Shown piece by piece: positions 47,323-58,270 of a stretch of 64,000 nucleotides of DNA. The notes beneath the pieces were generated by a model, which did no database searches, had not been told where the DNA came from, and worked only from the letters and a program-made list of their open reading frames with translations. The position numbers and the translations under genes were made by a program. Source of the stretch: Stenotrophomonas maltophilia (GTDB lineage Bacteria > Pseudomonadota > Gammaproteobacteria > Xanthomonadales > Xanthomonadaceae); assembly GCF_039555535.1 (NCBI RefSeq), contig NZ_CP154630.1, forward strand, positions 1,191,001-1,255,000, written 5' to 3'. Position 1 is the stretch's first letter; each line of letters starts with the position of its first letter.

Positions 47323-47337
47323 TGAATACGTATGCAG
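47323..47337. promoter_or_regulatory. Operator copy 1 upstream of the alpha-glucosidase
   Basis: Exact TGAATACGTATGCAG with a palindromic ATACGTAT core (47326-47333), 94 nt upstream of the GH13 start codon. The same 15-mer recurs at 52150 and 54430, each in the sugar locus. The form suits a LacI-family repressor. Confidence 0.8.
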
Positions 47338-47431
47338 GCCGCGCCATGCCCGGGAGGCCGCCGCTAAGCTTGCCGGAACAGGATTTCGGCCCGCTTCCGG
47401 CGGGCCCTGCATGCCCGGAGGGGGGCTGTCG

Positions 47432-49045
47432 ATGTCGCACTATCCATGGTGGCGCGGAGCCGTCATCTACCAGATCTACCCGCGCAGCTACCTCGATGCC
47501 AACGGCGATGGCGTGGGCGACCTGCCGGGCATCATCGAGCGGCTGGACCACATTGCCGCGCTGGGCGTGGACGCGATCTGGATCTCGCCGTTCTTCAAGT
47601 CCCCCATGGCCGACTTCGGCTACGACATCGCCGACTACCGCGACGTCGACCCGCTGTTCGGCAGTCTGGACGACTTCGATCGCCTGCTGGCCAAGGCGCA
47701 CGGCCTGGGCCTGAAGGTGATGATCGACCAGGTGCTGAGCCACACTTCGATCGAGCACGCCTGGTTCCGCGAGAGCCGTCAGGACCGCAGCAATCCGAAG
47801 GCCGACTGGTACGTGTGGGCCGACCCGCGCGAGGACGGCACCCCGCCGAACAACTGGCTGTCGCTGTTCGGTGGCGGCGCCTGGCAGTGGGAGCCGCGCC
47901 GTGAGCAGTACTACCTGCACAACTTCCTGGTCGACCAGCCGGACCTGAACTTCCACCACCCGGACGTGCAGCAGGCCACCCTGGACAACGTACGGTTCTG
48001 GCTGGACCGCGGCGTGGACGGCTTCCGCCTGGACGCCATCAATTTCTGCTTCCACGACGCGCAGCTGCGCGACAACCCGCCAAAGCCCGCCGACAAGCGC
48101 GTGGGCCGCGGCTTCAGCCCGGACAACCCCTACGCGTACCAGTACCACTACTACAACAACACGCAGCCGGAGAACCTGCCCTTCCTGGAGCAGTTGCGCG
48201 CGCTGCTGGACGAGTACCCGGGCGCGGTGAGCCTGGGCGAGATCTCCTCGGAGGACTCGCTGGCCACCACCGCCGAGTACACCCGGGGCGGCCGCCTGCA
48301 CATGGGCTACAGCTTCGAGCTGCTGGTGGACGACTACAGCGCGGCCTACATCCGCGACACGGTCTCCCGCCTGGAAGCGGCGATGACCGAAGGCTGGCCG
48401 TGCTGGGCGGTTTCGAATCACGACGTGGAGCGGGCGGTCAGCCGTTGGGGCGGGCACCCGGCCGACCCGCGGCTGGCGCGTATGCTGGTGGCGCTGCTGT
48501 GCTCGCTGCGCGGCTCGGTGTGCCTGTACCAGGGCGAGGAGCTGGGCCTGGCCGAGGCCGAGGTGCCGTTCGAGGCCCTGCAGGACCCCTACGGCATCAC
48601 CTTCTGGCCGAACTTCAAGGGCCGTGATGGCTGCCGCACGCCGATGCCGTGGACCGATGCGCCGCTGGCCGGTTTCACGTCCGGCCAGCCGTGGCTGCCG
48701 ATTCCGGCCGAGCACCGGGCGGCGGCGGTGGCCGTGCAGGAACGCGACCCGCACTCGGTGCTGACCGCGTTCCGGGCATTCCTGGCCTGGCGGCGCAGTC
48801 AGCCGGCACTTCTGCATGGCAGCATCCGTTTCATCGACAGTACCGAGCCAGTGCTGCTGTTCGAGCGTATGCTTGCAGATGAAACCCTTCTGCTGGCCTT
48901 CAACCTGTCGGCCGAGGCGGTGCGCCATCCGCTGCCGCCGGGCAACTGGCAGCAGGTGGCGGTGCCGGGCCCGGATGCGGGCACGGTGCAGGGCAATGAA
49001 CTCCAGCTGCCGCCGCGCGCGGTGTATTGCGCCCGACGCAGCTGA
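47432..49045 (+). CDS. GH13 alpha-glucosidase (XgtA-like, intracellular)
   Basis: The 537-residue enzyme hydrolyses maltose or transfers alpha-glucosyl groups. It has the GH13 blocks with catalytic Asp201 (GFRLDAINF), Glu270 (SLGEISSE) and Asp331 (SNHDVERAV). These numbers coincide with those I recall for the Xanthomonas alpha-glucosyl transfer enzyme. The N-terminus WWRGAVIYQIYPRSYLDANGDG is typical of alpha-glucosidases of the GH13_23 type. No signal peptide is visible, so it should be cytoplasmic and act on imported maltose/maltodextrin. The ATG at 47432 has GGAGGGGGG upstream, and an operator lies 94 nt upstream. An intrinsic terminator follows. Confidence 0.92.
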   Translation: MSHYPWWRGAVIYQIYPRSYLDANGDGVGDLPGIIERLDHIAALGVDAIWISPFFKSPMADFGYDIADYRDVDPLFGSLDDFDRLLAKAHGLGLKVMIDQVLSHTSIEHAWFRESRQDRSNPKADWYVWADPREDGTPPNNWLSLFGGGAWQWEPRREQYYLHNFLVDQPDLNFHHPDVQQATLDNVRFWLDRGVDGFRLDAINFCFHDAQLRDNPPKPADKRVGRGFSPDNPYAYQYHYYNNTQPENLPFLEQLRALLDEYPGAVSLGEISSEDSLATTAEYTRGGRLHMGYSFELLVDDYSAAYIRDTVSRLEAAMTEGWPCWAVSNHDVERAVSRWGGHPADPRLARMLVALLCSLRGSVCLYQGEELGLAEAEVPFEALQDPYGITFWPNFKGRDGCRTPMPWTDAPLAGFTSGQPWLPIPAEHRAAAVAVQERDPHSVLTAFRAFLAWRRSQPALLHGSIRFIDSTEPVLLFERMLADETLLLAFNLSAEAVRHPLPPGNWQQVAVPGPDAGTVQGNELQLPPRAVYCARRS

Positions 49046-49072
49046 CCGTTTTCTCCGGTGGCGGTACTTGCG

Positions 49073-49104
49073 GGGACGGGGCCGAAGCGCCCCGTCCCTT
49101 TTTT
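49073..49104 (+). terminator. Intrinsic terminator after the alpha-glucosidase gene
   Basis: A 9-bp perfect stem (GGGACGGGG/CCCCGTCCC) with an 8-nt loop is followed by six T. It starts 28 nt after the stop. Confidence 0.92.
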
Positions 49105-49142
49105 GTGGGCGGGGCCCTGTCGACCAACGGCCAGCCTTTGCG

Positions 49143-49175
49143 CAAAAGAAAACCCGCTGCCTGCGCAGCGGGTTT
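49143..49175 (-). terminator. Intrinsic terminator after the sugar-locus TonB receptor
   Basis: On the minus strand a stem AAACCCGCTGC/GCAGCGGGTTT, loop of 4, is followed by TTTTCTTTT. It can also work on the plus strand. Confidence 0.85.
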
Positions 49176-49199
49176 CCGGTCCTGCTCCCTGTTTTCTGT

Positions 49200-49257
49200 T
49201 GCCGGCCAGCGGCCGGCACTACCGAGTCCGGGGCGCCGGGCAGGGCCCGGCACGACC
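49200..49257. repeat. Two GTAG-family palindromes in tandem
   Basis: A minus-strand GGTAGTGCCGGCCGCTGGCC copy and a second of the GCCGGGC/GCCCGGC type, directly downstream of the TonB receptor stop at 49258. Confidence 0.75.
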
Positions 49258-52026
49258 TCAGAACTTGTAGTTCACGCCCAGCATGTAGGTGCGGCCCCAC
49301 TCGATGTACTCCAGCGGGCGGTCCTTGCTGCCGGCATAGGTGCGGTACGGCTCGTTGGTCAGGTTGCTGCCCTGCAGCAGCAGGGTCAGCCCGCGCAGGC
49401 TGCTGCTGTCGCTGAAGGTGTAGCTGATCTGTGCATCGGTCACGTTCTCGCCCACCACGTAACGCAGCGTGCGGTTGCCGTTGAAGTTGCCGATCTCACC
49501 AATGAAGTCCGAGCGGCGGCGCTGGCTCACGCGTGCTTCAAAGCCACTGCGCTCGTAGTAGGCGGTGAAGTTGTACACGCGCTTGGACAGGCCGGGCAGG
49601 CTGATCGGGTCACTGCCCACGCTGGAGGCGCTTTCCGGATCCAGGATGGTGATGTCGCTCTTGTTGAAGGTCGCGCTGGCCTGCACGCCGAAGCCACGCA
49701 GGCTGTCGGTCAGCATCTCCAGCGGGAACGACCCGGTCAGTTCCAGCCCCTTCAACGTGCCGCCCTTGCCGTTCTGCGGCGTGGAGAAGGTGCCGGTGGT
49801 CAGCACCGGTGCGGTCATGCCCGGTGGCGGCAGGTAGTTGCCCAGCAGGCCGCTGAAGTCATAGTTGTCCACCGATTGCGTGTAGACGTAGCTCTTCAGG
49901 TCCTTGTAGAAGATCGCCGCAGCCACGTAGGCCTTCTCGCCGAAGTACTTCTCATAGGACAGGTCCAGCGCGGTTGCGCGCCACGGATCCAGCAGCGGAT
50001 TGCCGCCGCTGCCACCGGGGCGGCCGTTGTTGGTATCCACGCCGAATTCCAGGCCGGCACGCATCTGGTCCACGCGCGGGCGCGCCACCTGCTTGGCGGC
50101 GGCAAAGCGCAGCGTCTGCTGGTGCGGGAACATGAACACCAGGTTCAAGCTCGGCAACCAATCCTTGTAGGTCTTGCCGGCAGAGAAGGGCTGGATGTTG
50201 CTGCCCGCCGGCTGCGAGCTGTCCCAGTAGCGCGAATCCGAGCTCTGGTCGGTGTGCTGCATCTGCACGCCGATGTTGCCGCGCACGCCGACCACGCCGA
50301 TGTCGGTGTTGATGTTCAGGCGTGCCCACGCGGTGGTGATCTTCTCCTCGACCGTCCACGACTTGGGAATCAGGTAGTCCAGGTTGTCGACCGGATTGAA
50401 GGTCATGTAGCGACCCACCGCTGCCGGCACGTTCCACGACGGGATGTAGCCGATGCCGGCGAAACCGAGGTTGACCGGCCGGTACTGCAGGTCCGGGGCG
50501 ATGGTGGATTCGCCTTGGGCGCCGAGCAGGATGTTGCCTTCGGCCTGGGCCTTCTGCTTGCGACGGTCGGCATAGTTCACGCCCACGTCCACATCCGAGA
50601 ACCAGCTGGACATGGCTTCGGGAACCGGCAGCGTCGCCGCCAGCTTTGCGCCCTTCAAACGGTCTTCGACCTCCGGCACCTTGCCGTAGCCGGAACCATA
50701 GATCGTGTTGGTCAGGAACAGGCTGTCCGGATTGGAATAGTCACGCCCCGGCGTGATCTGCGAGAAGCTGTTGTTGTTCACCACCAGGCCGATCGTGTCG
50801 AACTGCGGGCGCGGCACCAGCTGCAGGTTGTTTTCCAGATTGATCTCGCGGCGGGTCGCCTTCGAGTAGTTCAGGTCGGCGACCAGCTTCACGCCGCCGA
50901 CGTTGAACTCGTTGTTCCAGCCGAACGCGTCGATCTTGTCCTTGCGCTTGTTGTACATGCCGCGGACCAGCGGGTACGCATTGCTGATCGTGCCACCGGT
51001 GAAGCTGCCATCGGCATTGCGGCCGACATTGCTGAACACCGGCAGGATCGCGTTGGGATTGTTGCTGTCCTCGCCATTGCCACTGAGGCTCAGCTCGAAC
51101 TGGTTGGCGGTGTCGATCTGCTCGGCTTCGGTGTGGAACGCGTCGAAGGTGCTGGTCCAGCTGTTGCTCGGGCGGAACTGGATCGTCGCCATCACGCCGT
51201 CGCGCTTGTTGTTGCCGGTACGGCGCAACGCCTTGATGCCGTCGGTGAAGTAGGTGCCTGGCGCGATTCCGCGACGCTGGCCTTTGTCGGTGTGCTCGGT
51301 GGTCCAGGGCTCGTAGAGGCCGACCTGGTTCTCCTGGATCGGCATGTCGCTGTGCGCGTAACCGATGGCGATGCCCAGGGTGTTGTCGAAGAACTGGTCG
51401 ATGTAGCTGGCACTGAAACGATTGCCGTACGGATCGATGTTGGCGGCGCGGCCCAGGGAGCTCTTCTGGTAGCGGCCGCTGACCGCGATCACGCGCTCGC
51501 CGAAGCTGAGCGGGCGTGCGGTCTGCATGTCGATGGTGCCCGACAGGCCCTGGCCGACCAGGGCCGCGTCCGGGGTCTTGTAGACGGTCACGCCGTTGAC
51601 CAGCTCGGACGGGTACTGGTCGAACTCGACACCGCGGTTGTCGCCGGTGCTGACCACTTCACGGCCATTGAGCAGGGTGGTGGCGAAGTCGGGTGACAGG
51701 CCGCGCACGCTGATCACCTGCGCACGGCCGGCAACGCGCTGGGCGGCCAGGCCGGGAAGGCGCGAGATGGATTCGGCGATGCTGACGTCGGGCAGCTTGC
51801 CGATGTCTTCGGCGGAGATCGCCTCGACCACCGAGGTGGCGTCCTGCTTGACTGCGATCGCGCTCTCGATGCCGCGGCGGATGCCGGTGACCTGCACCGT
51901 ATCCAGGTTGGTGGCGGCGGTGCCGGCCGGCGTGGTGGTGCTCTGCGTGGACTGTGCCGACGCCAGCGTCGGCGCCAGCACAACGGCCAGCGCGAGACTC
52001 AGCGCACTGTGCTTGTGGTTCAACAT
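49258..52026 (-). CDS. TonB-dependent receptor of the maltodextrin locus
   Basis: The 922-residue outer-membrane receptor has a signal peptide (ALSLALAVVLAPTLASA) and the TonB-box region LDTVQVTGIRRGIESAIAVKQDATSVVEAI, typical of the carbohydrate (CUT-type) receptor group with longer plugs. It continues with EDIGKLPDVSIAESISRLPG, VISVRGLSPDFATTLLNGR and TIDMQTARPLSFG, and ends in GVNYKF. These receptors import oligosaccharides under TonB energy. The ATG at 52026 has GGGAGGGGAAA just upstream; the frame upstream is unrelated. An operator copy lies 124 nt upstream. The substrate, probably maltodextrin, is inferred from neighbours. Confidence 0.92.
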   Translation of the reverse strand: MLNHKHSALSLALAVVLAPTLASAQSTQSTTTPAGTAATNLDTVQVTGIRRGIESAIAVKQDATSVVEAISAEDIGKLPDVSIAESISRLPGLAAQRVAGRAQVISVRGLSPDFATTLLNGREVVSTGDNRGVEFDQYPSELVNGVTVYKTPDAALVGQGLSGTIDMQTARPLSFGERVIAVSGRYQKSSLGRAANIDPYGNRFSASYIDQFFDNTLGIAIGYAHSDMPIQENQVGLYEPWTTEHTDKGQRRGIAPGTYFTDGIKALRRTGNNKRDGVMATIQFRPSNSWTSTFDAFHTEAEQIDTANQFELSLSGNGEDSNNPNAILPVFSNVGRNADGSFTGGTISNAYPLVRGMYNKRKDKIDAFGWNNEFNVGGVKLVADLNYSKATRREINLENNLQLVPRPQFDTIGLVVNNNSFSQITPGRDYSNPDSLFLTNTIYGSGYGKVPEVEDRLKGAKLAATLPVPEAMSSWFSDVDVGVNYADRRKQKAQAEGNILLGAQGESTIAPDLQYRPVNLGFAGIGYIPSWNVPAAVGRYMTFNPVDNLDYLIPKSWTVEEKITTAWARLNINTDIGVVGVRGNIGVQMQHTDQSSDSRYWDSSQPAGSNIQPFSAGKTYKDWLPSLNLVFMFPHQQTLRFAAAKQVARPRVDQMRAGLEFGVDTNNGRPGGSGGNPLLDPWRATALDLSYEKYFGEKAYVAAAIFYKDLKSYVYTQSVDNYDFSGLLGNYLPPPGMTAPVLTTGTFSTPQNGKGGTLKGLELTGSFPLEMLTDSLRGFGVQASATFNKSDITILDPESASSVGSDPISLPGLSKRVYNFTAYYERSGFEARVSQRRRSDFIGEIGNFNGNRTLRYVVGENVTDAQISYTFSDSSSLRGLTLLLQGSNLTNEPYRTYAGSKDRPLEYIEWGRTYMLGVNYKF

Positions 52027-52149
52027 TTTCCCCTCCCAGGCAATGTTGCAGATCGATCTGTGAGCGTTCCGGCGGTGCCGTGAACGTGCGACGCGGTGGC
52101 CGCTGTCGTCGCCGCTATGGTAGGCAGCGCATTCTTCGCGGGAATCACC

Positions 52150-52164
52150 CTGCATACGTATTCA
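52150..52164. promoter_or_regulatory. Operator copy 2 upstream of the TonB receptor
   Basis: Reads TGAATACGTATGCAG on the minus strand, identical to copies 1 and 3, with the ATACGTAT core at 52154-52161. It is 124 nt upstream of the receptor start. Confidence 0.82.
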
Positions 52165-52207
52165 ATGGCGTTTGCAGGGGTGTAATCGCTTTCAAGTGTC
52201 TCGTTCT

Positions 52208-52279
52208 GTAGAACCGAGCCCATGCTCGGCTGCATTTCGGTGCTGCGCACCGCCGCCCGAGCGTGGGCTCGGGCGCTAC
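52208..52279. repeat. SMAG-like palindrome pair
   Basis: GTAGAACCGAGCCCATGCTC from 52208 and an inverted copy ending GGGCGCTAC at 52279, between the receptor leader and the GH97 stop. Confidence 0.8.
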
Positions 52280-52301
52280 GGGGGCGCAGGCAGGAAAACG
52301 T

Positions 52302-54356
52302 TCAGCGGATCGGCGTGAAGCGGATGGCCTGCCCACCGCCCGGCGCCAGCACCAGCGTCAGGGCATCGGCGCTGGTCACCTCGCGGGTTTCCCGGGCGAA
52401 TGCGAACGGGTTGCTGCGGAAGTCGGCGCCGTCACCATCGCGGTAGATCTCTGCGCGATAGCGCACGCCGGGTTCCAGGAAGCCCAGCGACACCGGCAGC
52501 ACGCGGCCGTGTTCATCGGTGATGCTGCCGAGGAACCAGTCGCGGCTGTTGCGGTCGCGGCGCACGATGGTCACGTAGTCGCCCACTTCGCCATCGAGCA
52601 CGCGGCTCTGCTCCCAGTCCACCGCCACGTCCTCGATGAAGCGGAACGCCTCGCGGTGCTGCAGGTAGTGCTCGGGCAGGTCGGCGGCCATCTGGATCGG
52701 GCTGTACAACACCACGTACAGGGCAAGCTGGCGGGCCAGCGTGCTGGGGATGGCCAGGCCGTGGCGGCCCTTCAGGCTGAGGATGCCGGGGGTGTAATCC
52801 ATCGGCCCGGCCAGCATCCGGGTGAAGACCAGGTTGACCTCGTGCTCCGGCGGGTTCGGCGGCTGGCCCCAGGCGTTGTACTCCATGCCGCGCGCGCCTT
52901 CGCGAGAGATCCAGTTGGGGTAGGTGCGGCGCAGGCCGGTGTCCTTGATCGGCTCATGCGGGTTCACCGACAGGTGCCGGCGCGCGGCCTCCTGCACCAC
53001 CTTCAGGTGATGGCGGGCCATGAACTGCCCGTCGTGCCACTCGCGCCAGAGCGGGCCGCCGGCTGGGTTGCGGCGGTCGACCTGGCCATCGTCGCAGACG
53101 TAGCCGGTCTTGAACTGGTCCACGCCCAGCCGTGCGTACAGGTCCAGCGCGGCGCCCAGCTGATCCTCGTAGTGCTCGATGGCGCAGCCGGTTTCGTGGT
53201 GGCCGATCAGGTGCACGCCCTTTTTCAGGCCATACGCCGACAGCGCGTCGATATCGAAATCGGGCGTGGCGCGGGTGAAATCGAATTCGTAGCCGTTGCC
53301 CACCCACATGCCGTCCCAGCCGGGATTCCAGCCTTCCACCAGCACGCCACGGAAGCCGTGCGCAGCGGCGAAGTCGATCACCTTCTTCGTCTTGGCGGTG
53401 GTGGCCGCATGCTTCGGCCCGGTCGCCCAGCTCTCGTTGTCCAGGTGCATCGACCACCACACGCCCAGGTACTTGGCTGGCTTCACCCAGCTCACGTCGC
53501 CCAGCGCGTTGGGCTCGTTGAGGTTGAGGATCAGGTCCGATTCGACCAGCCCACCTGCGCGGTCAGCAATCTGCAGCGTGCGCCACGGTGTGGCGAAGGG
53601 CAGGGCGCGGCGCACCTTCCAGCCTTCGGCCGCAGGCGAAAGCTGCGCGCGCAGGCGCTGGCCCTCGGTGCGGCGTAGCCACATGCCGGCGTAGTCCACC
53701 AGCGCGGCCTCGTGGATTGCCACGTGCAGGCCATCGCGGCTGCGCAGGGTCATCGGCGTATGTACCAGCGGCACTTCGCGCAGCGGGGTGCGCTGGTACA
53801 GGTATTCGTAGTGGATCGGCTCGCCGGCCAGAATCCACCAGGCGGTCGATTCCGGCGCGATGGCGAACTCGGTCAGCTCGTCATCGATGATCGCCTCGCG
53901 CAGGTTGGGCTGCTCGGGGAACACATAGCGGAAGCCGAGGCCGTCGTCATAGACGCGGAACACCACATCCAGGCGGCGCTTGTTGCCGGTGTTCTCGGCC
54001 AGCTGAACTGTCAGTTCGTTGAAGTGGTTTCGGGTGAGCCGGCGCTCGCCCCAGGGCTGTTCCCAGCGGTCGTCGACGCTGCGTTGCTGCTGGCCGATCA
54101 CCGCGAAATCACGATCCAGCCGGCCGTCGCGCAGGGCGAAGCCCAGCTTCGAATCCTCCACCACGGTCTGGCCGAAACGCTCGACGCGATAGCGCGCCGT
54201 GCCGCCGTCCAGCACCAGGCTGGCCCTGAGCACTTTGCCCGGCGATTCGACGCTGACAACCTGCGGCGCAGCCTGCGACAGCGCCGCCATTCCCAGCAAT
54301 GCCAGGCCGAACACATGCGCGAGCGCGCTGCGTACAGCAGTGGGTGACATCGGCAT
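52302..54356 (-). CDS. GH97-family glycoside hydrolase (SusB-like alpha-glucosidase)
   Basis: The 684-residue exported enzyme has a signal peptide (VFGLALLGMAALSQA). GH97 marks are SPGKVLRASLVLDGG, DDGLGFRYVFPEQP and an (alpha/beta)8 part with LVEGWNPGWDGMWVGN, LIGHHETGCAIEHYE, SVNPHEPIKDTGLRRTYPN and GMEYNAWG. The Glu in HHETG and NPHEP matches the residues that define the inverting, alpha-glucosidase-like branch (SusB) rather than the retaining one. Start codons at 54356 and 54350 both have GGGAGGGG upstream. It diverges from the six-hairpin gene over the third operator. Confidence 0.9.
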   Translation of the reverse strand: MPMSPTAVRSALAHVFGLALLGMAALSQAAPQVVSVESPGKVLRASLVLDGGTARYRVERFGQTVVEDSKLGFALRDGRLDRDFAVIGQQQRSVDDRWEQPWGERRLTRNHFNELTVQLAENTGNKRRLDVVFRVYDDGLGFRYVFPEQPNLREAIIDDELTEFAIAPESTAWWILAGEPIHYEYLYQRTPLREVPLVHTPMTLRSRDGLHVAIHEAALVDYAGMWLRRTEGQRLRAQLSPAAEGWKVRRALPFATPWRTLQIADRAGGLVESDLILNLNEPNALGDVSWVKPAKYLGVWWSMHLDNESWATGPKHAATTAKTKKVIDFAAAHGFRGVLVEGWNPGWDGMWVGNGYEFDFTRATPDFDIDALSAYGLKKGVHLIGHHETGCAIEHYEDQLGAALDLYARLGVDQFKTGYVCDDGQVDRRNPAGGPLWREWHDGQFMARHHLKVVQEAARRHLSVNPHEPIKDTGLRRTYPNWISREGARGMEYNAWGQPPNPPEHEVNLVFTRMLAGPMDYTPGILSLKGRHGLAIPSTLARQLALYVVLYSPIQMAADLPEHYLQHREAFRFIEDVAVDWEQSRVLDGEVGDYVTIVRRDRNSRDWFLGSITDEHGRVLPVSLGFLEPGVRYRAEIYRDGDGADFRSNPFAFARETREVTSADALTLVLAPGGGQAIRFTPIR

Positions 54357-54429
54357 TTCCCCTCCCAAGGCGCCGTTGGCAGACCCGGACCATAAGCCAG
54401 CGCAGCCGGCGCGCTACCGCGCAGCGCCA

Positions 54430-54444
54430 TGAATACGTATGCAG
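54430..54444. promoter_or_regulatory. Operator copy 3 in the divergent GH97/six-hairpin promoter region
   Basis: Exact TGAATACGTATGCAG on the plus strand. It is 74 nt from the GH97 start and 150 nt from the six-hairpin start, so it could control both units. Confidence 0.85.
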
Positions 54445-54593
54445 CTGGGCGCAGTCGACAGCCCCGCGTCTACCATGGGGCCAAGGCCCCTTGAGGGAGG
54501 GGCCGCGCCCGCCCGCCGGCAACGACGGTACGGACCTACAACGCGTGCAGAGAGGGAGGGAGGCCGACGGGCGCAAGCCGGTCCGCCGCTTCG

Positions 54594-56786
54594 ATGCTGA
54601 AGATCATTTGCCTGACCGCTGCCCTTGGGGCAGCGCTGGGATCGACCGCGCAGGCGGCCGACCTGCAATTCGACGGCCGCCACGCGCGCGCCGAAGCCGC
54701 TGCCAACGGCAGCTTCGTGCTGCATGCGCCGAAGGGGGCAGTCCAGATCGCAGCCGCACCGATGCGCAGCCGCACCGGCAGCGTGATGTTCGATGCACTG
54801 TTCGCGCTTGCCCAGCAGGAGATGGACCAGGACCGCGTGGACGCGATCCGTGATCCTGCCTTCGACGAAGGCAGGCCGGTGCCGTGCGAGTGTTTCCAGA
54901 CCGGCGCACGCTGGCCCTATGTCTGGACCCGCGATGTCAGCTTCGCCGCCGACCTGGCGCTGGCGCGGCTGGACCCCCTGCGCACCCGTCAGTCGCTGCA
55001 GTTCAAGCTGTCGGCGGCGCGCGACGGGCACACGCCCGGCCTGTTCGTGGCGCAGGACACCGGTTCCGGCGGCAGCTGGCCGATCAGCAGCGACCGCGTG
55101 GTGTGGTTCCTGGCCGCGCGCCACCTGCTGGATGATCCGGCGTTTGCCGATCAGGTCTGGCAGGCGCTGCAGGGTACGCTGGCGCAGGACCGGGCGATGG
55201 TGTTCGACGCGCAGATGGGCCTGTACCGCGGCGAGACCTCGTTCCTGGACTGGCGTGAGCAGACCTATCCGGACTGGACCCGCGAGGATGTGCGTTTCAT
55301 CGGTGATTCCTATGCGTTGTCCACCAACGTGCTGCACTACCAGGCGCTGCGCCTGGCCGAGCAGCTGGCCGCCCAACGCGGTGACGCCCGTGCGGCCGAA
55401 TACAGGGCCTGGGCCGACGCGCTGGCGCAGCAGATCGATGCGCGCTTCTGGCGCGAGGACATCGGCCTGTACATGAGCTACATCGGTGAAGCCGCGCACC
55501 CGGTGCCGTATGCCAAGGTGGATCTGCTCGGCCTGTCGCTGGGCATCCTGGCCGACGTGCTGCCGCCCGAGCGTGCGCGCCGTGCGCTGGCGGCGTACCC
55601 GATCGGGCCGGCTGGCAGCCCGGTGGTCTGGCCGCAGGAAGCGCAGCAGCCGATCTACCACAACCGTGCGATCTGGCCGTTCGTCAGCGCCTATTCGCTG
55701 CGTGCAGCGCGGCAGCTGGACGATGCGCCGCGCATCGCCGCCGAGATCCGCTCGCTGATGCAGGGTGCCGCGCTGGCCGGTTCCAACATGGAGAACTACG
55801 AGCTGGTCAGCCAGGCGGTGCATGTCGAGGAAGGCGCGCTGAGCGGCCCGGTGGTCAATTCCGAGCGGCAGCTGTGGTCGGTGGCGGGGTACCTGTCGAT
55901 GGTGGTCGAAGGTGTATTCGGCGTGCAGGACGATGGCAGCGTGCAGCCCAAACTGCCGGCCAGCCTGGTGCCCGAGCTGTTCGGCAAGCAGCGCCGCATC
56001 ACCTTGGAGGCCAACGGCAAGCGCTACGTGCTGGAGCGCCCGCAGACCGTAAGCGATGGCCTGCTGGTGTCAGGCAGGACCACCACGCGTGGCAGCATCA
56101 CGACGGTGCAGCTGGTCGCCGCCCCGGCAGCAACTGGTTTCGCTGCCACGACTGCGGATGCCAACGCCCGTGCGCCGGTCACGCCGGTGGCACCGCAGGC
56201 CCTGCGCAAGGGCGCGGGTTGGAACGTTGCGGTGGCAGCCGATCAGGTGCTGTGGAAGGACGGCAAGGCAGTCACTGCCAGCAACGGCGTGGCGCGCATC
56301 AGCGACGATGGCCTGCAGCACTGCCTCAGCCTGACCCGCCGCGAAGGCCGGCTGGAATCGCTGCACAGCCCGATGGTCTGTGTCGGGCCGGAGCAGCGGC
56401 TGAAAGGGGGACAGCGCTGGCAGTTCACTTCGGCCAAGGCCGGGCACGTACGCCTGCGGTTGCAGTACGCCAACCCGAACGGGCCGATCAATACGGGCGT
56501 CACCGCTGCGGTGAAGCAGCTGGCGCTGCAGTGCGCGGGCCAGCCGCTGCAACGGCACACGGTTGCCTTGCCGCACAGCGTGGCCGTTCAGGATTCCACG
56601 GCGGCGACGTTCGCAGTACCCAAGGGACCGTGCACGGTCACGCTTGAAGAGGGTTTCAACATGAGCGCGCTGGAACACTTCGCGCATTACACCGGTGGCA
56701 AGGGCGGGCGCGACGGTGTGCTCAACCAGGCGCAGGTGCTGGCATTGAAGGTGGTGCAGGTGGCCGTGGAAGAGGGCGCACGATGA
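54594..56786 (+). CDS. Exported six-hairpin glycosidase-like protein
   Basis: The 730-residue protein has a signal peptide (MLKIICLTAALGAALGSTAQA). Its large central domain is of six-hairpin ((alpha/alpha)6) type: YVWTRDVSFAADLALARL, GSWPISSDRVVWFLAARHL, SMYLYRGETSFLDWREQ-like segment (as GLYRGETSFLDWREQ), VWPQEAQQPIYHNRAIWPFV. A C-terminal part is probably beta-rich. The catalytic acids and family number cannot be fixed from sequence; an exo-acting alpha-glucosidase is likely from context. The start has GAGAGGGAGGGAGG about 30 nt upstream. It overlaps the MFS gene by 4 nt, heading a three-gene operon. Confidence 0.82.
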   Translation: MLKIICLTAALGAALGSTAQAADLQFDGRHARAEAAANGSFVLHAPKGAVQIAAAPMRSRTGSVMFDALFALAQQEMDQDRVDAIRDPAFDEGRPVPCECFQTGARWPYVWTRDVSFAADLALARLDPLRTRQSLQFKLSAARDGHTPGLFVAQDTGSGGSWPISSDRVVWFLAARHLLDDPAFADQVWQALQGTLAQDRAMVFDAQMGLYRGETSFLDWREQTYPDWTREDVRFIGDSYALSTNVLHYQALRLAEQLAAQRGDARAAEYRAWADALAQQIDARFWREDIGLYMSYIGEAAHPVPYAKVDLLGLSLGILADVLPPERARRALAAYPIGPAGSPVVWPQEAQQPIYHNRAIWPFVSAYSLRAARQLDDAPRIAAEIRSLMQGAALAGSNMENYELVSQAVHVEEGALSGPVVNSERQLWSVAGYLSMVVEGVFGVQDDGSVQPKLPASLVPELFGKQRRITLEANGKRYVLERPQTVSDGLLVSGRTTTRGSITTVQLVAAPAATGFAATTADANARAPVTPVAPQALRKGAGWNVAVAADQVLWKDGKAVTASNGVARISDDGLQHCLSLTRREGRLESLHSPMVCVGPEQRLKGGQRWQFTSAKAGHVRLRLQYANPNGPINTGVTAAVKQLALQCAGQPLQRHTVALPHSVAVQDSTAATFAVPKGPCTVTLEEGFNMSALEHFAHYTGGKGGRDGVLNQAQVLALKVVQVAVEEGAR

Positions 56787-58270
56787 ATCGTCCCGCCAAA
56801 CCGCAGCTGTCGTTCTGGCAGATCTGGAACATGTGTTTCGGCTTCCTTGGCATCCAGTTCGGTTTCGCGCTGCAGAATGCCAATGCCAGCCGCATCTTCG
56901 AGACGCTGGGCGCGGACATCGAGGCGGTGCCCGGGCTGTGGATCGCCGCACCGCTGACCGGCCTGCTGGTGCAGCCGGTGATCGGCTACCTGTCCGACCG
57001 CACGTGGACGCGCTGGGGCCGCCGCCGTCCGTTCTTCATGATCGGTGCGGTGCTGACCACGCTTGCCCTGCTGGTGATGCCGAACTCGCCGACGCTGTGG
57101 ATCGCCGCCGGCACGCTGTGGGTGCTCGACGCTTCGATCAACGTGTCGATGGAACCGTTCCGAGCCTTCGTGGGCGACCAGCTGGCACCGCGGCAGCGGC
57201 CCACCGGCTATGCGATGCAGAGCTTCTTCATCGGCGTGGGCGCGATTGTCGCCAGCTTCCTGCCGTTCATCCTTGCCCACTTCGGCGTGGCCAATACGGC
57301 TGCCGCCGGTGAAGTGCCGGACACCGTGCGCTATGCGTTCTACTTCGGCGCGGTGGTGCTGCTGGCGGCGATCACCTGGACGGTGGTCAGTACCCGCGAG
57401 TATTCGCCGGCACAGCTGGCTGCATTCGATGATGCCGAGCCACCTTCGCACCATGCCGCGCGCGCTGTCAGCGGACCGGCACCGTGGACGCAGGTGGCGC
57501 TGTGGCTGGGGCTGGGCGTGCTGCTGGCCCTGCTGATCGCCTGGCGCCAGGGTGACAGGATGCTGTACGTGCTGGCGGGACTGTGTGCAGGCTACGGCCT
57601 GCTGCTGGCCGTGGCCCGCGCGCTGCCTGGCACGCATATGCTGGCCGCCATCGTCGGCGACCTGCGAGCGATGCCGGTGACCATGCGGCGGCTGGCCTGG
57701 GTGCAGTTCTTCTCGTGGTTCGCGCTGTTCGCAATGTGGATCTACACCACCGCGGCGGTGGCTGGTGTCCACTTCGGTTCGGCCGACCCGAAGACGGCGG
57801 CCTACAACGAGGGCGCCAACTGGGTGGGCGTACTGTTCGGCGCCTACAACGGCTTCGCTGCGCTGGCTGCGGTACTGATTCCACCGATGGTGCGTGCCAT
57901 CGGCCTGCGCTGGAGCCACCTGGTCAACCTGTGGTTGGGTGGCGCCGGTCTGGTGTCGCTGATGTTCATCCGCGACCCGCACTGGCTGTTGCTGTCGATG
58001 GTCGGCGTCGGCTTCGCCTGGGCGTCGATCCTGTCGCTGCCGTATGCGCTGCTGTCCGACAGCGTGCCGGCGTCGAAGATGGGCGTGTACATGGGCATCT
58101 TCAATTTCTTCATCGTGATCCCGCAGCTGGTCGCGGCCAGCGCGCTCGGCTTTGCGCTGCGCGCGTGGCTGGGTGGCCAGCCGATGCATGTGCTGGTACT
58201 GGGCGGCTGCAGCCTGTTCGTCGCCGGCCTGTGCGTGCTGCGGGTTCCGTCCCGTCCGGAGGTGGTGTGA
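56783..58270 (+). CDS. MFS/GPH-type sugar transporter (maltose-like)
   Basis: The 495-residue inner-membrane carrier has about 12 helices. The N-terminus WQIWNMCFGFLGIQFGFALQNANASRIFETLG, the loop SDRTWTRWGRRRPFFMIG (MFS signature between helices 2 and 3), and SMEPFRAFVGD match MalY/sucrose-type sugar:proton symporters. The substrate is inferred as maltose or glucose oligomers from the flanking hydrolases. It overlaps the six-hairpin gene by 4 nt and the amylase by 1 nt, so all three are translationally coupled. Confidence 0.9.
   Translation: MNRPAKPQLSFWQIWNMCFGFLGIQFGFALQNANASRIFETLGADIEAVPGLWIAAPLTGLLVQPVIGYLSDRTWTRWGRRRPFFMIGAVLTTLALLVMPNSPTLWIAAGTLWVLDASINVSMEPFRAFVGDQLAPRQRPTGYAMQSFFIGVGAIVASFLPFILAHFGVANTAAAGEVPDTVRYAFYFGAVVLLAAITWTVVSTREYSPAQLAAFDDAEPPSHHAARAVSGPAPWTQVALWLGLGVLLALLIAWRQGDRMLYVLAGLCAGYGLLLAVARALPGTHMLAAIVGDLRAMPVTMRRLAWVQFFSWFALFAMWIYTTAAVAGVHFGSADPKTAAYNEGANWVGVLFGAYNGFAALAAVLIPPMVRAIGLRWSHLVNLWLGGAGLVSLMFIRDPHWLLLSMVGVGFAWASILSLPYALLSDSVPASKMGVYMGIFNFFIVIPQLVAASALGFALRAWLGGQPMHVLVLGGCSLFVAGLCVLRVPSRPEVV

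Follow-up and report, generated by a model that had tools for sequence, protein, structure and literature searches.

Direction-specific boxes of a predicted MalR regulon for maltodextrin use in Stenotrophomonas maltophilia and its relatives

A 64,000-nucleotide (nt) stretch of the Stenotrophomonas maltophilia genome (contig NZ_CP154630.1, positions 1,191,001 to 1,255,000; hereafter, the window) carries three identical copies of the 15-mer TGAATACGTATGCAG, located upstream of a GH13 alpha-glucosidase-like gene, a TonB-dependent receptor gene, and a divergent pair encoding a GH97 glycoside hydrolase and a six-hairpin glycosidase-like protein. These copies are probably the sites of a LacI-family protein, MalR, in a maltodextrin regulon that would comprise the receptor, the three enzymes, and a transporter of the major facilitator superfamily (MFS). 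We computed the sites, their conservation, their co-occurrence with one LacI gene, and their spacing and orientation. Judging from these sequence features, we infer that MalR binds the boxes, that a maltodextrin is its ligand, and that the liganded protein would activate the promoters, possibly also repressing them without sugar.

The operator and its candidate regulator

The preliminary description of this DNA had reported the 15-mer at three positions, and exact matches were found at all of them (Table 1). With up to three mismatches, the window gave six listings, i.e., the same three places on both strands, compared with a mean of 0.52 and a maximum of 4 in 100 shuffled sequences. No fourth site with two or fewer mismatches was found in the 4,830,894-base genome, and the reversed control gave 0 matches; the possibility that the motif is widespread in the genome, raised in the same description, was therefore rejected. 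The boxes lie 94 nt (GH13), 123 nt (receptor), 149 nt (six-hairpin gene), and 73 nt (GH97) before the respective starts, in agreement with the 74–150 nt given earlier. The core had also been called palindromic, which is nearly so for the 14-mer TGAATACGTATGCA, whose symmetry is broken at a single pair of positions (A at 3, G at 12). As an even-length 14-mer with a central CG, placed 73–149 nt before starts, the operator fits the rule given for LacI operators in the accessible text of PMC4052901 (even palindromes, central CG, 30–140 nt before starts). In the genome, exact matches to the 14-bp pseudo-palindrome TGNATACGTATNCA are confined to these three sites, and two one-mismatch sites lie elsewhere. 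One of these, TGAATACGAATTCA at G000:C1:260214-260227 (L023), has by eye a TetR-like frame downstream and an acyl-CoA-dehydrogenase-like frame on the opposite side and is probably another regulator's site; the other lies, also by eye, inside a 571-aa frame.

Eight LacI-type helix-turn-helix matches were found in the genome. The gene that we call malR (G000:C1:1256701-1257729, minus strand; 65701-66729 on the window's scale) lies 1.7 kb past the window end, so the earlier statement that the regulator is not encoded here is true for the window, with the gene itself just outside. MalR matches PF00356 above the cut-off and is similar over its full length to LacI-family structures; it also resembles LacI-family NCBIfam models, but among the matches listed none was above its own cut-off. 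Its neighbors in S. maltophilia are ABC-transporter genes. In Xanthomonas, the gene lies inside the mal locus, and MalR is 78–84% identical to the LacI protein of those loci.

The presence of exact TGNATACGTATNCA was compared with that of a MalR ortholog in 297 genomes of the family, using a cut-off of E 1e-80 that was chosen after a gap had been noticed between about 1e-70 and 1e-83. The motif occurred in 202 of 216 ortholog-bearing genomes and in 6 of the 81 others (phi 0.84); 28 non-matching genomes, which were not among the MalR search matches listed, were assigned by elimination, and the Fisher p values of such tables ignore kinship. In comparison, two control LacI genes of the S. maltophilia genome gave phi values of 0.38 (motif in 139/162 genomes with the gene vs. 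69/135 without) and 0.40 (150/176 vs. 58/121). Where 17 genomes were sampled from each of five genera, 12 of 13 ortholog-less genomes were also without the motif. The regulator of the boxes is very probably MalR, whose binding is predicted. The idea of one LacI-family regulator for a maltodextrin regulon, put forward in the preliminary description, is thus supported by gene content, the uniqueness of the sites, their conservation in Stenotrophomonas and Xanthomonas, and this co-occurrence.

Orientation of the box and its distance to the −10 element

The box is asymmetric and tends to point in the direction of transcription. Specifically, the fetched loci hold 224 sites, of which 213 have TGAATACGTATGCA on one of the strands, the remainder being symmetric TGAATACGTATTCA (n = 2), symmetric TGCATACGTATGCA (n = 5), or other variants (n = 4). 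Among asymmetric sites with a target on one side only, 21 of 22 point with the gene, while 18 sites lie between divergent targets. Over all receptor cases, the box is forward in 21 and against the gene in 1, and at divergent sites the receptor side is mostly forward.

The box is also phased to a −10-like element. We define the −10 index as the number of nt from the 14-bp box to the start of TANNNT. An index of 28–31 was found at 124 of 133 distinct sites from 80 GH97-fetched loci plus the window and at 44 of 52 distinct sites from other genera, against a background for the latter of 0.97/52 in shuffled flanks and 1/52 on the reverse side. By contrast, 15 other LacI-type palindromes of the genome (30 flanks) had no TANNNT at 28–31. 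The operators are conserved in Stenotrophomonas and Xanthomonas mal loci. Of the 80 GH97-fetched loci, 48 show the three-site arrangement, and there the −10 lies at 29 both for GH13 (48/48) and for the receptor (48/48), where nine loci have an extra match at 34; for the six-hairpin unit, it lies at 28 (44/48). We found no conserved −35 element, as no position stood out between the box and the −10 (TTG at −33 in 9/44 and at −36 in 5/44). Taking −12 as the start of the −10, the box spans about −54 to −41, with its center at about −47.5, which would be the position of an activator; the predicted transcription starts of the three units then lie near window positions 47377, 52110, and 54483.

At the receptor, a second LacI-type palindrome precedes box 2. 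Of 179 distinct sites, 39 are preceded by a match to TGNAANCGNTTNCA (≤1 mismatch) whose start lies 30 or 31 nt upstream of the box, and 38 of these 39 are receptor promoters in Stenotrophomonas or Xanthomonas loci; the preferred spacing of tandem LacI sites is reported as 32 bp (PMC4052901). This second box may add a tandem dimer or a second regulator. The TGNAANCGNTTNCA palindrome family has 18 sites in the S. maltophilia genome, and two of them lie just upstream of LacI genes (L007 and L008), a location that suggests autoregulated LacI regulons.

Locus genes, other genera, and exceptions

Table 1. Boxes, −10-like elements, and genes of the predicted maltodextrin locus (positions in the window)
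Feature	Position	Strand	Remark
MalR box 1, GH13 promoter	47323..47337	+	exact match; kept at GH13 in 48 three-site loci
MalR box 2, TonB-receptor promoter	52150..52164	−	exact match; 48 three-site loci
MalR box 3, divergent GH97/six-hairpin promoter	54430..54444	+	exact match; 48 three-site loci
Second LacI-type palindrome TGAAAGCGATTACA	52181..52194	−	starts 30 nt upstream of box 2, gene strand
−10-like TAAGCT, GH13 promoter	47365..47370	+	starts 29 nt after 14-bp box 1
−10-like TACCAT, TonB-receptor promoter	52117..52122	−	starts 29 nt after 14-bp box 2
−10-like TACCAT, six-hairpin/MFS unit	54471..54476	+	starts 28 nt after 14-bp box 3
Candidate −10 TATGGT of GH97	54389..54394	−	36 nt from box 3, opposite side
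GH13 alpha-glucosidase-like gene	47432..49045	+	Pfam Alpha-amylase, E 1.3e-118
TonB-dependent receptor, TonB-Xanth-Caul type	49258..52026	−	Pfam plug + barrel; TIGR01782 above cut-off
GH97 glycoside hydrolase	52302..54356	−	three GH97 Pfam domains
Six-hairpin glycosidase-like protein (MGH1-like)	54594..56786	+	Pfam PF22422, E 1.8e-07
MFS sugar transporter	56783..58270	+	Pfam MFS_1; 4-nt overlap with six-hairpin gene

The GH97 gene has its best identity (97%) to S. maltophilia records, and the MFS transporter shows a weak match, below cut-off, to a GPH sucrose symporter. No NCBIfam model matched the six-hairpin protein; its likely counterpart in Xanthomonas citri, XAC2598, is not assigned to any GH family there, according to the accessible text of PMC10714752. 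An NCBIfam model named beta-galactosidase BglA matches the GH13 enzyme with E 1e-245, below cut-off, and the model's name looks doubtful for this reason.

Beyond the loci fetched by GH97, 49 sites were drawn from 40 regions in other genera, chosen among the motif matches listed. Of these sites, 41 lie ≤450 nt upstream of a TonB receptor, amylase, GH13, GH97, MFS, or SSF gene, and 5 of the 8 non-target sites have variant outer letters. The reference proteins AmyGD, Amy2, and SSF came from regions of the same 40-region set; L140 was counted solely via its own SSF protein and L142 solely via its own amylase (Pfam). Three genomes of genus g18, which MalR identity would place as Xanthomonas-like, have an extra site before a relative of an alpha-amylase, with the −10 at 31. 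In X. citri grown on starch, the amylase XAC0798 and several locus genes were raised (PMC10714752).

In a class-level survey, the exact 14-mer was present in 16 of 369 genomes, 12 of them outside the family. Six of these (G434, G641, G438, G550, G645, and G461, from families f140, f144, and f162) have boxes by receptor, GH13, or distant amylase relatives with the −10 at 29 or 30, and all six carry a MalR ortholog (54–62% identity) on the same contig as the boxes. In four others (G588, with two sites, G444, G596, and G335), neither a −10 nor a recognized mal gene is present, while G534 has an index of 29 without a recognized target and G528 has an index of 29 at a distant receptor relative; no MalR ortholog was found in any of these six, the match in G588 reaching only 32%. 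A set of 12 genomes without the site had 0 MalR orthologs at E 1e-30. An alphaproteobacterial GH97 locus, from Asticcacaulis (L115), holds two MalR-like genes (45% and 40% identity) along with three boxes, none of them followed by TANNNT at 28–31.

Within the family, 14 genomes have the ortholog without the exact motif. Nine were read, and eight carry TGAATACGTTTGCA by GH13 and MFS genes, with the −10 at 29 in seven and at 30 in one; for the ninth, the contig breaks off too soon. Covariation of the recognition helix (VSQATVSRV in TGAATACGTTTGCA genera, in place of VSQPTVSRA) was rejected as an explanation, because orthologs from genomes scored as having the exact motif also carry VSQATVSRV. 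The motif-only genomes include one with an 82-residue MalR piece (84% identity) at the extreme contig end (G221); one whose box (L215), without a −10, an adjoining amylase match, or a MalR ortholog, looks like a decaying relic (G265); three with variant letters and no recognized mal gene nearby (G080, G180, and G193); and one that is 83% complete, with a site beside mal genes and no ortholog (G024). G069 was scored as motif-positive solely by a variant site lacking a −10; at its GH13/MFS promoter lies a box with two mismatches and a −10 at 29. G145 has a fourth site with no recognized target and TANNNT solely at 40, and G243, which has the ortholog, holds a single exact site, at an amylase.

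Mode of control and comparison with known systems

The fixed phase and orientation, the lack of a conserved −35, and a box near −47.5 lead us to prefer activation that depends on maltodextrin, or dual control, to plain repression. The liganded MalR would help RNA polymerase to bind at promoters without a −35 and may also hold the genes down when sugar is absent. We lean, with less confidence, toward a wider claim, i.e., that a LacI-family protein serves as a sugar-dependent, direction-specific activator at −35-less promoters across several gammaproteobacterial families, using an asymmetric operator in which TGAATA, away from RNA polymerase, and TGCATA, next to it, would be told apart, with tandem LacI sites 30–32 bp apart at outer-membrane receptors.

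Several observations weigh against such activation. Most characterized LacI proteins repress, and MalR might be a classical repressor that leaves the boxes on maltodextrin, in which case the spacing would mark the best blocking position or an unseen activator. The induction of locus genes by starch or maltose fits relief of repression too. In the distant relative Caulobacter, MalA may reportedly be produced constitutively in a malI mutant, an outcome that would favor repression there. The X. citri authors suggest that XAC2595 represses (PMC10714752), and the gene of Xanthomonas campestris pv. campestris (Xcc) is labeled a maltose transport gene repressor (PMC1790865); the repressor wording in the accessible text of these papers cites no mutant of the LacI gene. 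Not all targets obey the geometry either. The GH97 side of box 3 is off the 28–31 rule (35–36 in 35 of 48 loci, none in 9), and AmyGD-type amylases lie behind the box in 11 of 11 cases, divergent or single; genes in that position thus break the rule, which argues against all targets sharing one mode of control. Some boxes are doubled in G438, G550, and G645, with one member unphased, as is L226 (G645), and the distant genomes have a higher A and T content, with which TANNNT becomes more frequent (an extra match at 24 is present in L228 and L242). Even so, a steric repressor would not need its spacing to stay at 28–31 nt, and both this spacing and the orientation are kept across families; the box lies upstream of the core promoter, with no conserved −35, and the other LacI-type palindromes of the genome show no such phase. 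We therefore regard classical repression as unlikely, if far from negligible.

The identity of the binding protein raises a different issue. Another transcription factor might bind the box, with MalR merely traveling with the locus: the TonB-receptor, GH13, and MalR genes tend toward joint inheritance, which could mimic co-occurrence, so that co-occurrence alone is no proof of binding, and the motif of G024 stands beside mal genes without a MalR match, though in an incomplete genome. There is also no box at malR in the S. maltophilia genome, which gives no sign of the autoregulation reported for 72% of LacI regulators (PMC4052901), a common but not a defining trait. Against this, a CG-centered TG-N10-CA palindrome suits LacI proteins (PMC4052901), and MalR is encoded in the locus in Xanthomonas and on a box-bearing contig in six distant genomes; we consider another factor quite improbable. 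That the identical 15-mers are a functionless chance or repeat feature has nothing in its favor beyond their identity and is already contradicted by sites that are unique in the genome, occupy the same three promoters in 48 loci, and are phased to the −10, which leaves it a negligible chance.

MalR control as proposed here would assign a named regulator gene and an operator to the use of starch and maltodextrins by Stenotrophomonas, Xanthomonas, and their relatives, where the LacI gene was assumed to encode a repressor. If MalR activates, the sign of the regulon needs revision, and hundreds of natural fixed-geometry promoters would become available for studying the contact of a LacI dimer with RNA polymerase. 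A directional, phase-locked box was not found in the literature searched on the motif letters and on LacI/MalR maltose control in Xanthomonas and Stenotrophomonas, though RegPrecise or subscription papers may record the operator; a search on Caulobacter MalI gave nothing usable on the operator.

In geometry, the closest parallels are E. coli Cra (FruR), which activates from sites just upstream of −35, and the Xanthomonas HrpX promoters, where PIP boxes lie ~30–32 nt before a −10-like YANNNT. Cra differs as a global regulator that senses fructose phosphates, and HrpX as an AraC-family protein with a different box. Cra is described as acting as repressor/activator (PMC4052901). In Enterococcus faecium, MdxR is a LacI-family protein named an activator, whose deletion impaired growth on maltodextrins; it differs in serving Gram-positive ABC-transporter genes, and its promoters and binding sites are not described in the accessible text (PMC3737153). 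In gene content, a similar regulon is predicted in Shewanella, with LacI-type MalR sites upstream of transporter operons, malZ, susB (GH97 type), and the gene of an outer-membrane TonB receptor; the accessible text is silent on phase and direction (PMC2996990). The CUT locus for maltose and starch in Xanthomonas (XCC2469 region; XAC2595-XAC2602), which either substrate, maltose or starch, induces (PMC1790865, PMC10714752), is alike in its LacI gene, TonB receptor, GH97, GH13, and MFS genes; it differs in that the accessible accounts give no operator and take the LacI protein as a repressor. To that locus, our analysis adds the operator with its phase and, elsewhere in the genome, a site at an amylase gene. 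The regulon is thus of an already known kind, and what is new is an asymmetric, transcription-oriented, phase-locked operator.

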